This document shows, piece by piece, positions 31,652 through 43,528 of a stretch of DNA of 43,528 nucleotides. The DNA comes from Bacillota bacterium. Lineage in GTDB: Bacteria > Bacillota > Limnochordia > Darwinibacteriales > JAAYFS01. The DNA lies in assembly GCA_012728115.1 (NCBI GenBank), contig JAAYFS010000016.1:1-43528 (forward strand). The letters are read 5' to 3'. The translations under genes and the position numbers were made by a program. The notes beneath the pieces were generated by a model. That model worked only from the letters and a program-made list of their open reading frames with translations, ran no database searches and had not been told where the DNA came from. Within the stretch, counting starts at the first letter, position 1, and every line of letters begins with the position of its first letter.

Positions 31652-31822
31652 AATGATGAAAATGCCAATTAAACAAATATTTAACGAAAATTACAAAGGG
31701 AAATGGTGGTATTTGTCAAATAGAATACTGATAAGGGTATTCATACGTTTGATAGTATAGCTGGTATTATTATCAGCTTACTATTGTAATTAGGGGTAAT
31801 AGAGTAGATGGGAGAGTGGCTT

Positions 31823-33703
31823 ATGTTTAACACACTAATTAACAGAATCAATTTACCTCAAGAACTGATTGATGTCGCAAAGAGTAGTCCATATATTATC
31901 ATGCCCAATAGTCGCGATGAGTTACTAAACTTAGCGATCAATGGGATGGTAAATGGTATATATGAAGTCTCTTACGAAGTTCCTGGTAAAGGCGAAGTTG
32001 TTGAGGCTTCTGTTACTTCATGTAAGAATGGAATCTCAGTAAACTTTCCTGAAGAATATATGCGGAGAAGAGATCCAGATTGCTTAGTTATTGGTGATAA
32101 AAAACCGACTGATAAACCAACTTTTGTTGAACGTTTCGGTCGGGAGTTTGACTCGGTAAGACAAGAAACCCTCGATTGGTTAAAGGATCAACCTCTAATT
32201 TTTTTGCCCTTTATGGCGGGTGGTTTCGAGTATGGTTATCCTGCCTTATTAATTGCCCCTAAGAATGCAGCTTTTTTTGCTGGAGGTTTAGCTGATTTAC
32301 AAGGATTTTTTCCAGTAGATCAAATTCCTGAGAATTTCACGCCTAAAGCCTATGTTTACTTAGCACCTCCTTTTAGACATACGCATTTTGATGGAAAACA
32401 AGTAGTTGTTCATAACAGATTAGAAGAGGTACATGAGGTATTCTCTTATAACCTTTATCCAGGTCCTAGTGCTAAGAAAGGCATTTACGGGGTTTTACTT
32501 AATATCGGGGAGAAGGAAGGTTGGACCACTTTACACGCTTCAACTGTTAAAGTTATCACTCCATACGAAAACGTGATGACCATCATGCATGAAGGTGCTA
32601 GTGGTGGCGGAAAAAGTGAGATGATTGAGGATCTCCATCGTGAACCAGATGGTAGTGTCCTTTTAGGTACAAATATAGTTACTGAAGAAAAAATAAAACT
32701 CGATCTACGGGAGACTTGTGAACTACAACCAGTAACAGATGATATGGCGCTATGTCCTCGCCAATTACAAGAAGGTTCGACTCGTTTGGTGGTTAAGGAT
32801 GCAGAAGAAGGCTGGTTTTTAAGGATTGACCATATAGACAAATATGGTACCGACCCTCACTATGAACGCTTATGTATTCATCCAAAAGAACCACTAATAT
32901 TCTTAAACCTTGATGGCGTTCCTGGTGCAACATGTCTAATTTGGGAGCACATTAAGGATGCTCCTGGTAAGCCATGTCCAAACCCAAGAGTAATCATGCC
33001 TAGAAGGCTTGTGCCTAACGTGGTAGAGGAACCTGTAGAAGTAGAGATCAGAAGTTTTGGTGTTCGAACACCTCCATGTACCAAAGAGAATCCAAGTTAC
33101 GGTATTATCGGATTCTTCCATTTCCTCCCACCAAGCTTGGCGTGGTTATGGAGACTGGTGGCACCACGAGGATATGCAAATCCAAGTATTGTAGATACAA
33201 AAGGGATGACGAGCGAGGGCGTGGGCTCGTACTGGCCATTTGCTACAGGACGGATGGTGGATCAAGCAAATTTACTTTTAGAACAAATCCTGCAAGCAAC
33301 AAGCACGAGATATATCTTAACTCCTAATCAATATGTGGGAGCATACCATGTCGGCTTTATGCCCCAATGGATAACACGTGAGTATTTGGCTCGTCGTGGT
33401 AGTGCCAGATTTAAAATGGAACAATTAGTTCCTTCTCGTTGCGAATTACTAGGATACTCATTAGAATCCGTTAAGGTTGATGGAACAAAGTTAAGTAGAG
33501 GGCTTATCCAAACGAACTACCAACCTGAAGTTGGCAATGACACTTATGATGAAGGAGCACGGATCTTAAAAGAGTTTTTCAAAAAAGAATTGAAAAAATA
33601 CTTAACCGATGATCTAAATCCTGTCGGACGCCAAATCATTGAGTGTTGCTTGGATGATGGAACGCTCGATGACTATTTAGGGTTTATTCCAATGAGATAT
33701 TAG
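31823..33703 (+). CDS. DUF4914 protein with HPr-kinase/PEPCK-like P-loop
   Basis: 626 residues, cytoplasmic, no membrane segment. I recognise the family as DUF4914. In the middle (about 257-268) stands EGASGGGKSEM, a P-loop matching the GxSGxGKSE form of HPr kinase and the PEP carboxykinase superfamily, preceded by a beta strand (YENVMTIMH) as in those folds. Other conserved-looking stretches: PLIFLPFMAGGFEYGYP (about 125-140) and the C-terminal YVGAYHVGFMPQWITREYL. It probably binds a nucleotide and transfers phosphate, but the substrate is unknown. ATG 31823 is 6 bp after GGGAGAG; ATG 31808 overlaps the SD. It stands alone, with a terminator after it. Confidence 0.75.
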   Translation: MFNTLINRINLPQELIDVAKSSPYIIMPNSRDELLNLAINGMVNGIYEVSYEVPGKGEVVEASVTSCKNGISVNFPEEYMRRRDPDCLVIGDKKPTDKPTFVERFGREFDSVRQETLDWLKDQPLIFLPFMAGGFEYGYPALLIAPKNAAFFAGGLADLQGFFPVDQIPENFTPKAYVYLAPPFRHTHFDGKQVVVHNRLEEVHEVFSYNLYPGPSAKKGIYGVLLNIGEKEGWTTLHASTVKVITPYENVMTIMHEGASGGGKSEMIEDLHREPDGSVLLGTNIVTEEKIKLDLRETCELQPVTDDMALCPRQLQEGSTRLVVKDAEEGWFLRIDHIDKYGTDPHYERLCIHPKEPLIFLNLDGVPGATCLIWEHIKDAPGKPCPNPRVIMPRRLVPNVVEEPVEVEIRSFGVRTPPCTKENPSYGIIGFFHFLPPSLAWLWRLVAPRGYANPSIVDTKGMTSEGVGSYWPFATGRMVDQANLLLEQILQATSTRYILTPNQYVGAYHVGFMPQWITREYLARRGSARFKMEQLVPSRCELLGYSLESVKVDGTKLSRGLIQTNYQPEVGNDTYDEGARILKEFFKKELKKYLTDDLNPVGRQIIECCLDDGTLDDYLGFIPMRY

Positions 33704-35555: not shown

Positions 35556-36935
35556 ATGCCCAAGAGAAAATTTTTCAGATTAGCATTAGTCCTTGTTATT
35601 TTAGTTTTGGCAGTGGGGTGTTTTCCTGGGCCATCTCCTTATACTGTAATTGGGCGAGTGGTTGATCAGAATGGTAATGGAATTGAAGGAGTGGAAGTTC
35701 GATTTAGTGGCACACTGATAACAGCGTACACTAATAAAAATGGATACTTTCAAGCGCAGATTCGTGGGCCGAAAATTGTAACTCCATATAAACCAGGATA
35801 TGAGTTCTCACCAAAACAACTATCTGTGAATGGCGAACCAGAAACTACAGTATATTTAAGTGAAGATTTTGTAGGAGTTTTTTATACAGTTAATTTAGAA
35901 GGATATGTCTATATCCTAGAAAATCCACAAGTTCTTTCGTTATCGGAGGCAGCTGATGAGTACTTGATTTCAACGGAATCTTTGCCTCCTTCTGGGTATG
36001 GACCACTAGTTAATGCAGCTGTCGAGCTTAAAGAGCTAGGTTATAATACATATAGCGCTAAAACAGATTATCGCGGTCGTTTTGTTTTTTATGACCTGCC
36101 AGTTGGGCCAAAAGAATTAACGATAACTCATTTCCAACTTCGTGATCCGATCCATCGCACAGTAAATATTAAAAAGGGCCTAAACTACGTTGCCGACCAA
36201 TATGCGGGTGTGGGATTCTATATCTACATCGGTATTGATGAGTACCTCCATGATTTAGATTTGCCAAGGATCAATGCTGCGAAAAACGCTAACGAAATGC
36301 AACAAGCCTTAGCGTCAGGGGTTTTAAAAGGTTTCGATCGAATTTTAACTAATCATCAGGCCACTAAGGCAAACATTAAAGCTGCTATTGACGATGCTAG
36401 ACGTTTAGCAGGTCCCGAGGACTACTTGGTAATTTATTTTTCAGGAAGGGTATTCAACGACCCAACCATCGGTTTAGATTACTTAGTTCCTTTTGATGGC
36501 AGAGATTATGGCTCAAAACCTGATAAGACTCTAATTACCGATGGTGAATTAGAGGGATGGCTAAGAAATTTCCCTGGAGATGTAACAGTTATTCTTGATG
36601 TGGATTATTCTGGATCCTTTATTGACGGGATTGTTACTTATGCTCCTCAATCGATCGAACCTTTAGCTTTAAGAAGATCTGGTTATACTGTAATCACATC
36701 GACGCAGAATGATGAACGTAATGTTTATGAACCTGGATCACCGTTTACGAGGTTCGTAGTCGAAGGATTAAGCACTCGAAAAGCAGATTCTAACTGGGAT
36801 AGAGAGATCACTGCATATGAGTTGTACAATTATGTTAGCAATCGGATGAAGAGCTATTTCCAAGGTGATCTGGATGCACATACTCCAAAATTTCATTCGT
36901 ATACACCGAATACGGTTATTTTAAGATATCAATAA
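35556..36935 (+). CDS. Pseudo-caspase lipoprotein (C14-like domain without catalytic dyad)
   Basis: 459 residues. Type II signal peptide with lipobox AVGC (Cys22), so anchored outside the membrane. Residues 28-100 are a carboxypeptidase-regulatory-like beta-sandwich (VIGRVVDQNGNGIEGVEV); a second such domain with TDYRGRFVFYDLPVG (about 110-205) follows. From about 221 to 459 is a peptidase C14/caspase-like domain: YIYIGIDEY, NAAKNANEMQQAL, RILTNHQATKANIKAAIDDA, YLVIYFSGRV, DYLVPFDG, ITDGELEGWL and VTVILDVDYSGSF. The catalytic His (usual SGHG) is Arg298 and the catalytic Cys (usual DACYSG) is Asp350, so no protease activity is expected. SD AAAGGAGG. Co-transcribed with the next gene. Confidence 0.8.
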   Translation: MPKRKFFRLALVLVILVLAVGCFPGPSPYTVIGRVVDQNGNGIEGVEVRFSGTLITAYTNKNGYFQAQIRGPKIVTPYKPGYEFSPKQLSVNGEPETTVYLSEDFVGVFYTVNLEGYVYILENPQVLSLSEAADEYLISTESLPPSGYGPLVNAAVELKELGYNTYSAKTDYRGRFVFYDLPVGPKELTITHFQLRDPIHRTVNIKKGLNYVADQYAGVGFYIYIGIDEYLHDLDLPRINAAKNANEMQQALASGVLKGFDRILTNHQATKANIKAAIDDARRLAGPEDYLVIYFSGRVFNDPTIGLDYLVPFDGRDYGSKPDKTLITDGELEGWLRNFPGDVTVILDVDYSGSFIDGIVTYAPQSIEPLALRRSGYTVITSTQNDERNVYEPGSPFTRFVVEGLSTRKADSNWDREITAYELYNYVSNRMKSYFQGDLDAHTPKFHSYTPNTVILRYQ

Positions 36936-39056: not shown

Positions 39057-39917
39057 TTGACACTAAACCAAATGAGTTTCACAATTGTAACTGGTTTGTC
39101 GGGAGCAGGAAAGACTCAGGCAATGAAAGCGTTGGAGGATCTAGGTTACTTTTGTATAGACAATCTTCCACCTGCTTTGTTGCGCGCTTTGGTTGATCTG
39201 CATGAAAAGTCTCATGAAGAAAGAAGGTTTGCCGTAGCTATCGATGTTCGAGGACGGGAGTATTTCCAACATCTAACCGAGGCTTTGGATTGGCTCGATG
39301 AGAATGGTTATCGTTTTAAGATCATTTTTCTAGAATGTCGGGATTCAGTACTAGTAAGACGATTTAGCGAAACAAGAAGGGCACATCCGTTGCAAACCAA
39401 GGGTAGTATTTTTGAAAGTATTGAAATGGAAAAGAAATTGCTCGCCGATGTTCGCAATCGAGCTGATGTAATCTTGGATACTTCGGTTATGAAACCTGTA
39501 GATTTAAAGGTAAGACTCAATAGTGAACTAACTGGCCGCCCATTAGAACAACTACTTACGATCGACTTGTTTTCCTTTGGCTATAAATATGGTGCGCCGA
39601 TTGATGCAGATATAATTTTCGATGTAAGGTTTGTCCCGAATCCATACTATATCGAAGAGTTTAAAGATAAGACAGGTAAGGATAGGGAATGTGCAGAATA
39701 CATTTTGAAGGATGAGACGCTTCAGTTTTTTATCGACCAATTTGTCACTATCATCTCGAGATTGATTCCACAGTATAGTAAAGAGGGAAAGAATCGACTT
39801 ACAATCGGTATAGGGTGTACAGGCGGTCAACATCGCTCGGTAGCAACCGTGATCGAGATTAACCAGAGATTAAAACAGAAAGGATTTATGACGTCGGTAC
39901 GTCATCGTGAAGTTTAA
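39057..39917 (+). CDS. rapZ: RNase adapter / nucleotide-binding protein RapZ (YvcJ)
   Basis: 286-residue RapZ family protein. N-terminal Walker A GLSGAGKTQAM, then CIDNLPPALL, FLECRDSVLVRRFSETRR (Walker B region), and the C-terminal domain with FSFGYKYGAPIDADIIFDVRF, NPYY and the signature IGIGCTGGQHRSV. In Enterobacteria it controls GlmS mRNA decay; in Bacillus YvcJ is linked to competence and has NTPase activity. The TTG at 39057 is 10 bp after GAGAGG; ATG 39072 lacks an SD. In many Bacillota it lies before yvcK and whiA; here it is followed by the permuted phosphoglycerate mutase. Confidence 0.93.
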   Translation: MTLNQMSFTIVTGLSGAGKTQAMKALEDLGYFCIDNLPPALLRALVDLHEKSHEERRFAVAIDVRGREYFQHLTEALDWLDENGYRFKIIFLECRDSVLVRRFSETRRAHPLQTKGSIFESIEMEKKLLADVRNRADVILDTSVMKPVDLKVRLNSELTGRPLEQLLTIDLFSFGYKYGAPIDADIIFDVRFVPNPYYIEEFKDKTGKDRECAEYILKDETLQFFIDQFVTIISRLIPQYSKEGKNRLTIGIGCTGGQHRSVATVIEINQRLKQKGFMTSVRHREV

Positions 39918-39997: not shown

Positions 39998-41572
39998 ATG
40001 TCGCGAGCAGTTTCAATTCGAGATTACTTGACTGAAATGTATCAAAAAGGAATTACGGATTATTGGATGCCACCAGCAGTCAAGTACGCCAAAGGTCGCC
40101 CATTAGGGCGAATTAATGATTCGGATTGCGTCATTTTTGCTTGTAGGCGTGGTGAGCGTGAAATCCAGTTAACTGAGGCGTTGACTCAACCAGATTTTTC
40201 TGGATTTGTTCGCTCTCGCGTTCCAAAGACGTATTTTTTTCCTTTGATTGAATACCATGAGAAGTTTCGTAACTTAATCCCGCTGCTACCTACTGAACGG
40301 GTGCGGATGCCTTTGGGGAAAGTGTTGGAACAGGCAGGTATTCGCCAGATTCGCGCAGCTGAAGCAGAAAAGTTCGCTCATGTAACCTTCTTTTTTGATG
40401 GGAGAAACGAAGAAGTAGCAGATTGTGAGTATGTACGATTCGATATCTCAAAAGAAAATTATCATATAGACTTAGCTGATCAATTAATGCGGTTTGTTGA
40501 AACAGTGAAGGAAAACCATCAACAGAAGTACGAATTTATGCTCATAAACTTCGCTGCTGGCGATATTCTTGGTCATGTTCCAGATTTTTTAAGGCAAGTG
40601 ATGTGTGCGGAAGCAGTTGATCTTGCGCTGGGTAGCTTAGTTAGGTGGGCACAAGAATCGGAGCTGACGATAATAATCACCGCTGATCATGGTCTATTGG
40701 AACAAGCATTTCTACCTGATGGAAGCTTTAGCATCGCCCATACGGCGGCAAAGGTTCCATTTATTTTGATCCCACCGACTGAACCTGAAGGGATTTATTT
40801 GAGAAGCGGTGGCTCGTTAGCAGATGTGGCACCAACCGTACTCAATTTGTTTGGCATAGCTCAATCTCCAGAAATGACTGGCGAATCACTGTTAATTTTA
40901 AACAACAACGAAAAAATATCTACAAAAGGTGTGGTATTGGTAGTACTAGATGGGTGGGGAATCGGGGTAAATGATCCATTAATCAACCCAATTTTCGCTG
41001 CTAGAATTCCGAATTTAGAAAAATACATCAATAGTTATCCTTATACCGAACTTTTTGCAGCTGGCGAGCATGTGGGTTTGTTACCAGGGAGTCCAGGAAA
41101 TTCTGAAACAGGACACCTAACTTTAGGTGCTGGTAGGGTGGTTATCCAGGATGAAGTGCGAATTCCAGAAGCGATAAAAAAAGGTGAGCTCTTGTCCCAT
41201 ACTAATTTTCACGAGTTGTTAATGAGAACTGCTTTTCGCCAAAATGCGGTTCACGTGCTTATGTTATTATCGGAACAGAGTTCACATGGTAGTATTGGTG
41301 AAACACTAGGAATTCTCGAGGCGATCAAATATCATCGGATTGATCAAGTATTTATTCATTGCATTCTCGATGGAAGAAGTGCGCCACCGCGTGCCGCGAT
41401 CGATCTAATCGAGAAATTTGGTAAGGACTTAAAAACCCTTGAAATTGGTGAAATTGTAACTATTGTCGGAAGAGGCTTCGCTTTGGATAGAAGCGGTGAT
41501 TATCAAAATACTACGCAGATCGCATATGAAGCCTTCATCGACGGTAAAGGTTACCCTGTTTGTGTATTGTAG
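39998..41572 (+). CDS. Circularly permuted 2,3-BPG-independent phosphoglycerate mutase-like protein
   Basis: 524 residues containing essentially all of iPGM but rotated. Residues 1-300 match the C-terminal half of ordinary iPGM: YQKGITDYWMPPAV, the CRRGER segment (Arg50), EAEKFAHVTFFFDG (Lys125), NFAAGDILGH (Asp189, His193), ITADHG (Asp230, His231) and IAHT (His248), then LADVAPTVLNLFG and EMTGESLL. After a linker (301-310) residues 311-524 match the normal N-terminal half: VLVVLDGWGIG (Asp318), GSPGNSETGHLTLGAGR (catalytic Ser369), EQSSHGS (His430), LDGRSAPP (Arg460), and GRGFALDRS (Arg492, Arg498). Thus all metal ligands and the phospho-serine are kept; the Asp of DGRD is Ser461. The gene is one clean frame. 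It would interconvert 3- and 2-phosphoglycerate if active. Confidence 0.88.
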   Translation: MSRAVSIRDYLTEMYQKGITDYWMPPAVKYAKGRPLGRINDSDCVIFACRRGEREIQLTEALTQPDFSGFVRSRVPKTYFFPLIEYHEKFRNLIPLLPTERVRMPLGKVLEQAGIRQIRAAEAEKFAHVTFFFDGRNEEVADCEYVRFDISKENYHIDLADQLMRFVETVKENHQQKYEFMLINFAAGDILGHVPDFLRQVMCAEAVDLALGSLVRWAQESELTIIITADHGLLEQAFLPDGSFSIAHTAAKVPFILIPPTEPEGIYLRSGGSLADVAPTVLNLFGIAQSPEMTGESLLILNNNEKISTKGVVLVVLDGWGIGVNDPLINPIFAARIPNLEKYINSYPYTELFAAGEHVGLLPGSPGNSETGHLTLGAGRVVIQDEVRIPEAIKKGELLSHTNFHELLMRTAFRQNAVHVLMLLSEQSSHGSIGETLGILEAIKYHRIDQVFIHCILDGRSAPPRAAIDLIEKFGKDLKTLEIGEIVTIVGRGFALDRSGDYQNTTQIAYEAFIDGKGYPVCVL

Positions 41573-42890: not shown

Positions 42891-42905
42891 AAGAGGTGGA
42901 TGACT

Positions 42906-43528
42906 TTGGATGCGTGGGAACGTTTCCATTCATGGATGAACGATGAGAAAATAGATGAAGAAACGAAAAATGAATTACAAAGCATTCGAGCTAACGATGA
43001 GGAAGTTTACGATCGCTTTTATAAAACGCTTGAGTTTGGAACTGGAGGTTTAAGAGGTAAAATCGGTGCAGGAGCGAATAGACTAAATATCTATACCATT
43101 CGTTTAGCGTCTCAAGCTTTTGCTAATGTATTAATTAAAAAGGGTAGGAGTTCACAAGGTGTTGTAATAGCTTATGATTCTCGTAATTGGTCGCGGGAAT
43201 TTGCCCATGAAGCAGCCAAAGTAATGATCGGAAATGGAATTCCAGTTCACATTTTTGATGATATCGCGCCTACACCTATGTTGTCGTTTGCCGTACGACA
43301 TATCGGTGCAGGAGCTGGAATTATGATTACCGCAAGCCACAATTCACCAGAATACAACGGATTTAAAGCCTTTGATGAGAAAGGTGTCCAGCTTTTAGAT
43401 GATTTAGCTTTAGCTGTAAGTGACCAGATGAAAACTCTTAGTCTATCCGATGTTAGAGTAGAATCTCAGCCTGATGTACATCCGCTTTGGCATGTTCTAG
43501 GAGAAGAGACATATCAAGCATATTTTCA
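42906..43528 (+). CDS. Phosphohexomutase (phosphoglucomutase/phosphomannomutase), 5' part
   Basis: The first about 207 residues of an alpha-D-phosphohexomutase of the long Bacillota type (PgcA-like). Visible: LEFGTGGLRGKIGAG (about 45-60), AYDSRNWSREF, the phospho-serine loop ITASHNSPEYNGFKAF and the start of domain 2 beyond. Cut by the right window edge. TTG 42906 is 8 bp after AGAGGT; an in-frame ATG at 42900 is only 1-3 bp from the SD. It interconverts glucose-6-P and glucose-1-P for glycogen, UDP-glucose or cell-wall glycolipids; co-transcription with a lipid-phosphate phosphatase suggests envelope glycolipid synthesis. Confidence 0.92.
   Translation, partial: MDAWERFHSWMNDEKIDEETKNELQSIRANDEEVYDRFYKTLEFGTGGLRGKIGAGANRLNIYTIRLASQAFANVLIKKGRSSQGVVIAYDSRNWSREFAHEAAKVMIGNGIPVHIFDDIAPTPMLSFAVRHIGAGAGIMITASHNSPEYNGFKAFDEKGVQLLDDLALAVSDQMKTLSLSDVRVESQPDVHPLWHVLGEETYQAYF

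Follow-up and report, generated by a model that had tools for sequence, protein, structure and literature searches.

The window, by which we mean the whole stretch of 43,528 nucleotides that was analysed, constitutes an entire contig (C2) of its MAG and carries an open reading frame of 524 codons, running uninterrupted from an ATG start, whose product is a phosphoglycerate mutase of the iPGM type with its two halves in swapped order (Table 1). The first segment combines the C-terminal part of the transferase domain with most of the phosphatase domain and includes Arg51/Arg54 (R261/R264 of Geobacillus stearothermophilus iPGM), Lys125 (K336), Asp189, His193, Asp230, His231 and His248. It is followed by a linker of ~9 residues, 2–4 residues longer than those of most relatives, and by a second segment with Asp318 (D12), the nucleophile Ser369 (S62), His430 (H123), Arg460 (R153), Ser461 (a change from D154) and Arg492/Arg498 (R185/R191). 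Between the permuted gene and the phosphohexomutase gene lie bioY and a PAP2 gene; in several relatives from the window's order, rapZ, the permuted gene and the phosphohexomutase gene are directly consecutive. Elsewhere in the window, positions 31808-33700 encode a full-length DUF4914 protein (1091 bits), and positions 35556-36932 a protein of secreted appearance that contains a carboxypeptidase-regulatory-like repeat and matches a caspase (EACC1-associated) family below threshold, at 53 bits where the cut-off is 140.

Table 1. Features of the permuted iPGM gene and its flanks in the window
Feature	Position	Strand	Evidence
rapZ, 80 bp upstream of the permuted gene, same strand	39057..39917	+	
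Complete ORF of the circularly permuted iPGM, 524 aa	39998..41572	+	ORF, phmmer, TIGR01307, rotated alignment, AF2 model
Segment 1, aa 1-301 = iPGM ~213-510	39998..40900	+	phmmer, structure alignment
Linker, about aa 302-310, old C-terminus to old N-terminus	40901..40927	+	
Segment 2, aa 311-524 = iPGM ~4-210	40928..41569	+	phmmer, structure alignment
Ser369 codon, equivalent to phosphorylated Ser62 of iPGM	41102..41104	+	
Ser461 codon, site of the Asp154-to-Ser substitution of the substrate pocket shared across the family	41378..41380	+	
Phosphohexomutase (PGM_PMM), truncated at the end of the contig	42900..43526	+	

An earlier note, made from the letters of this DNA, had proposed a natural circular permutation in one frame with a good start, and both parts of this proposal stand. 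The protein matches the Pfam families Metalloenzyme (PF01676) and iPGM_N (PF06415), as well as NCBIfam TIGR01307, the latter in two swapped stretches (358 bits against a cut-off of 330.65) and at E 1e-5 or better in 49/49 members of alignment A4. In a PDB search with phmmer, residues 11-300 aligned with residues 220-510 of iPGM (1EJJ) and residues 308-518 with residues 2-210. Moreover, the score of a global alignment to G. stearothermophilus iPGM rose from −20 in the native order to 695 after rotation at 308/309 and 709 at the best rotation (50 composition shuffles: mean −124, maximum −58), so that the swap of the second segment to the front, as suggested in that note, yields a match from end to end. 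The cut falls at iPGM residues ~210/213, inside the transferase domain where the new ends had been placed. At the level of sequence, the permutation is thus certain.

AlphaFold2, run with 49 permuted homologues, produced a single compact model (mean pLDDT 93.9, pTM 0.90) for which iPGM structures rank first in both Foldseek and VIA-align comparisons. The best structure alignment superposes model residues 4-300 on residues 213-510 of 1ejj (Z 20.5), and each half of the model matches 1EJJ/1O98, as the proposed overlay on iPGM required. A sequential structure aligner gave a full-chain TM-score of 0.47 against iPGM, which is expected and no sign of a different fold, because such programs align one half at a time; segment 2 modelled by itself was predicted less well (pLDDT 77) but still matches 1o98/1ejj. 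On the strength of these predictions, the iPGM fold is very likely kept despite the permutation.

The gene lies 2 kb from a contig end, a position that could favour an assembly artefact or two adjoining normal genes read through as one. A profile scan of 84,980 bacterial and archaeal species genomes, which used a CRRG[ED] pattern, gave 211 relatives, of which the best 80 were retained; order, junction and breakpoint are the same in eight further genomes from the order of the window and in all 80 of these loci, which come from independent projects and include the isolates Levilinea saccharolytica and Oscillibacter valericigenes. In addition, no repeats were found at the locus, and dN/dS values of 0.08-0.24 in six pairs (0.12-0.24 in close pairs, 0.08-0.11 in two more distant ones) indicate that in the relatives the gene is under purifying selection. 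Because the same order recurs in independent genomes, the arrangement is not a misassembly: the artefact reading has a negligible probability, and it is refuted for the family. Two of the grounds for refutation raised in the earlier note, a misassembly and a tandem pair of normal genes, therefore find no support in the independent assemblies, and the search for the same order in other genomes that it called for was successful.

The permuted form occurs in 9/37 genomes of the window's order, in one of which (G026) the gene is divided by contig ends, with its start on C22 and the rest on C36. With strict thresholds and each centre genome included, it is present in 9/73 genomes of the class, all nine within the window's order, in 3/151 genomes of the order of Levilinea and in 2/197 of that of Oscillibacter. 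The 80 retained loci belong to Bacillota, Chloroflexota, Bipolaricaulota, Thermotogota and Fidelibacterota, as well as to one Actinomycetota and one Thorarchaeota MAG, some of these bins being possibly contaminated. Judging from the scanned genomes, the permuted iPGM is a multi-phylum family rather than a singleton, and its presence is wide but patchy. Searches of plasmids and phages revealed no permuted copy, the matches listed being all two-piece ordinary iPGMs; neither did a search of viral contigs, which returned low-identity relatives of presumably ordinary order.

In a tree of rotated sequences (45 permuted versus 32 ordinary), the permuted proteins all fall on one side of a single branch (SH-aLRT 100), a split that recurs in a careful rotated tree including the divergent L146 (UFBoot 100 / SH-aLRT 99, 100% of 200 bootstrap trees); a single origin is therefore likely. 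Other enzymes of the alkaline-phosphatase superfamily are known to keep the ordinary order, so the permuted state is the derived one. None of 42 ordinary sequences carries the SSHG/DGRS signature in an ordinary-order iPGM, and no intermediate was found among them. L146 itself (G118:C318:3232-4770) is the first branch within the permuted clade and has neither DGRS nor CRRG, with YDLRGER and, where DGRD/DGRS is expected, GRRGER; its substrate may be different yet again.

Fifteen metal-site and substrate residues, whose roles we take to be those described in the 1EJJ/1O98 work, were compared between 83 permuted and 42 ordinary sequences in the numbering of G. stearothermophilus iPGM. D12, S62, D403, H407, D444, H445 and H462, together with H123, R153, R185, R191, R261, R264 and K336, occur in every sequence of both groups (83/83 and 42/42); the sole loss concerns position 154, which is Asp in all 42 ordinary and Ser in all 83 permuted proteins. 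In the window protein, the two-metal site and the Ser nucleophile are complete. The alignment bears out all seven metal ligands assigned from the letters (Asp189, His193, Asp230, His231, His248, Asp318 and Ser369), the retained Lys of EKFAHVT (Lys125) and substrate arginines, and the replacement of the DGRD Asp by Ser (Ser461). By contrast, the altered Arg spacing that had been suspected at CRRGER was mistaken, as this motif aligns gaplessly to NFRPDR with Arg51 and Arg54 on Arg261 and Arg264; the real changes at this site are Asn259 to Cys and Phe260 to Arg.

Thirteen signature columns (121, 122, 124, 149, 154, 186, 189, 195, 231, 259, 260, 265 and 299), all located in the transferase domain, set permuted apart from ordinary sequences, with xSSHG in place of GGVHS and usually CRRGER in place of NFRxDR. 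Columns 259 and 260 are biased by the CRRG[ED] in the pattern used for the scan: L147, which was retrieved independently of this pattern, has Leu at 259. The retention of the metal/Ser set and the confinement of the signature columns to the transferase domain indicate that the half which cleaves off the phosphate has stayed intact and that the one which handles substrate and acceptor has been re-specified. The protein could nonetheless simply be a true PGM isozyme that interconverts 3PG and 2PG and tolerates both the permutation and the Asp154-to-Ser change, since it scores above the TIGR01307 cut-off; it also keeps 14 of the 15 known catalytic and substrate residues. Against this stand the fixed difference at position 154 and the fixation of all 13 signature columns, which lie in the transferase half. 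Alternatively, the combination of an intact metal site and Ser62 equivalent with an altered transferase pocket would suit a phosphatase, in which the Ser-phosphate forms but the pocket offers no acceptor hydroxyl, and water takes the phosphate as in alkaline phosphatase; the strong conservation of the whole transferase domain and of Arg153, Arg185, Arg191 and His123 would be unexpected, however, if transfer had been lost.

The search for an ordinary PGM in the window's own genome, also proposed in the earlier note, retrieved two iPGMs of ordinary order, both on contig C46. One (G000:C46:42744-44282; locus L035 6715-8277) has GDSNVGH instead of GNSEVGH (N61D, E63N) around the nucleophile Ser62, a variant also seen in ordinary iPGMs across the window's class. 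The other (G000:C46:50550-52091; locus L035 14545-16119), the third iPGM homologue of this genome, contains a GNSEVGHNALGCG motif; together with its copies from three further genomes it forms a deep branch of its own. Several Clostridia with the permuted gene also carry an ordinary iPGM, most Chloroflexota with it have dPGM and/or the archaeal-type iPGM (aPGM), and both Bipolaricaulota tested have aPGM. The two ordinary iPGMs of the window's genome and the presence of another PGM in most genomes with the permuted gene suggest that the latter is probably a paralog whose substrate has changed, and an accessory, non-housekeeping role is favoured; together with the patchy distribution, they argue against the isozyme. 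In favour of the isozyme, four of the 23 genomes checked for iPGM, dPGM and aPGM (G079, G103, G106 and G107) have none besides the permuted gene, which might be their sole PGM, or these genomes might be incomplete.

Across 69 loci, the neighbours of the permuted gene include HAD hydrolases (40), an importer (35), LacI (22) and RpiR (20), an aPGM homologue (17), a PRK/uridine-kinase-like protein (17) and a cyclic 2,3-diphosphoglycerate (cDPG) synthetase (10), and operons are likely because the gaps, typically −4 to +38 bp, amount to a few bases or overlaps. The importer consists of a fused permease plus ATPase/SBP, and its SBP is closest to hexose-phosphate-binding AfuA (4r72) and PLP-binding P5PA (6wce), AfuABC being a hexose/heptose-phosphate transporter (PMC4546632). 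No such transporter/HAD operon surrounds the permuted gene in the window and its nearest relatives, which counts against the reading favoured below. Divergent operons in Anaerolineae include iolB/iolD or UxaE/D-mannonate oxidoreductase. Also in Anaerolineae, L107:9514-10713 and its relatives (UdkL, alignment A2) are two-domain kinase-like proteins encoded beside the permuted gene, with ~185 N-terminal residues of unknown type, a uridine-kinase/PRK domain and no close characterised relative. Two neighbour clusters, c11 and c17, were set aside as probably spurious antisense ORFs in GC-rich loci, because they have no Pfam match and an odd composition.

The neighbouring cDPG synthetase was identified at 1e-113 to the M. 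fervidus enzyme 8ork, whose pathway begins from 2-phosphoglycerate and whose product has been described as exclusive to hyperthermophilic methanogens (PMC10690619). The bacterial homologues (L080:6602-7957, L049:2692-4068 and eight more loci) share operons with the permuted enzyme and the importer. Their presence in 10 loci would suit an isozyme that is perhaps needed in special circumstances or by a branch that consumes 2PG, for instance cDPG synthesis. For the window's genome this idea fails: no cDPG synthetase was found in it, and among the 37 genomes of its order only G026 has one, on the contig that carries the start of the permuted gene. Furthermore, the neighbours in general are importers and phosphatases, not gap/pgk/eno, and on balance we regard the isozyme as unlikely. 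HAD phosphatases and organophosphate importers would be fitting company for a phosphatase, although the adjoining HAD enzymes would make it redundant; this reading appears improbable.

We therefore favour, with a probability of about 0.68, a re-purposed iPGM branch whose members act as accessory enzymes on a changed substrate, the latter being preferred because Asp154 to Ser and 12 further changes in the transferase domain are fixed in the family. As far as sequence can tell, the most likely function is that of a metal- and Ser-dependent phosphotransferase or phosphatase for a phosphoglycerate-like organophosphate other than 3PG/2PG. Two Mn/Zn ions would activate Ser369 to take the phosphate from the bound substrate, as in the first half-reaction of iPGM, and the pocket, remodelled by the changes from Asp154 to Ser, from GGVHS to xSSHG and usually from Phe260 to Arg, would bind a related organophosphate, probably acidic and phosphoglycerate-like, whose phosphate would then be moved to another hydroxyl or released. 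The enzyme would leave housekeeping to a separate PGM. Its substrate would, in many relatives, probably be imported by the neighbouring AfuA/PhnS-type ABC transporter, whereas in the window's lineage the gene would have left the importer operon for its present place between rapZ and the phosphohexomutase gene. A bolder and rather doubtful proposal is that the permuted clade forms a distinct enzyme family whose activity is new. Its members would be metal-dependent phosphomutases or phosphatases for an acidic organophosphate that the cell imports, such as 2,3-diphosphoglycerate, a compound derived from cyclic 2,3-diphosphoglycerate or another phospho-sugar-acid; they would serve an undescribed route of organophosphate scavenging found across anaerobes, the permutation having accompanied the change of function.

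Natural circular permutations of enzymes of central metabolism are rare, and the present one marks a whole clade over several phyla and two isolates rather than being the curiosity of one MAG. Its coincidence with fixed pocket changes allows a clean test of whether a rewired chain topology goes together with a new function, and the conserved operons suggest that Anaerolineae, Bipolaricaulota and Clostridia have an uncharacterised pathway for organophosphates. Since domain and family searches with TIGR01307 take no account of order, they label the clade as plain GpmI. Among open-licence papers no account of a permuted iPGM was found, in keeping with the earlier note, so that novelty is likely, not proven; a survey of bacterial PGMs mentions none and calls iPGM paralogs rare (PMC2964296). 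With the permuted iPGM, a textbook enzyme probably has a re-purposed branch that has so far escaped description.

Compared to known systems, the protein shares both domains with ordinary iPGM (GpmI, TIGR01307, PF01676 + PF06415; 1EJJ, 1O98), as well as the metal ligands, the Ser nucleophile and the substrate Arg/Lys/His residues, and after rotation is ~36% identical to the G. stearothermophilus enzyme over 495 aligned positions. It differs from the ordinary succession of phosphatase-N, transferase and phosphatase-C by its swapped order, with the old ends joined and new ones at ~210/213, by Asp154 to Ser, xSSHG and usually CRRGER, and by its separate branch in the tree. aPGM (TIGR00306 / NF003160), encoded beside it in the 17 loci mentioned above, belongs to the same alkaline-phosphatase superfamily but is unpermuted, not homologous from end to end and matched only weakly, below the cut-offs. 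Phosphopentomutase DeoB has the phosphatase-domain fold in common (3m7v, Z 11.4 over 173 residues) but a different cap/transferase domain, and the permuted protein scores far below the DeoB family cut-off. Eukaryotic glutathione synthetase, a known natural circular permutation (PMC2876114), represents the same type of event in a different enzyme, with termini joined, new ends opened and the fold kept; unlike in that case, the permutation of iPGM distinguishes a clade whose active site has changed.
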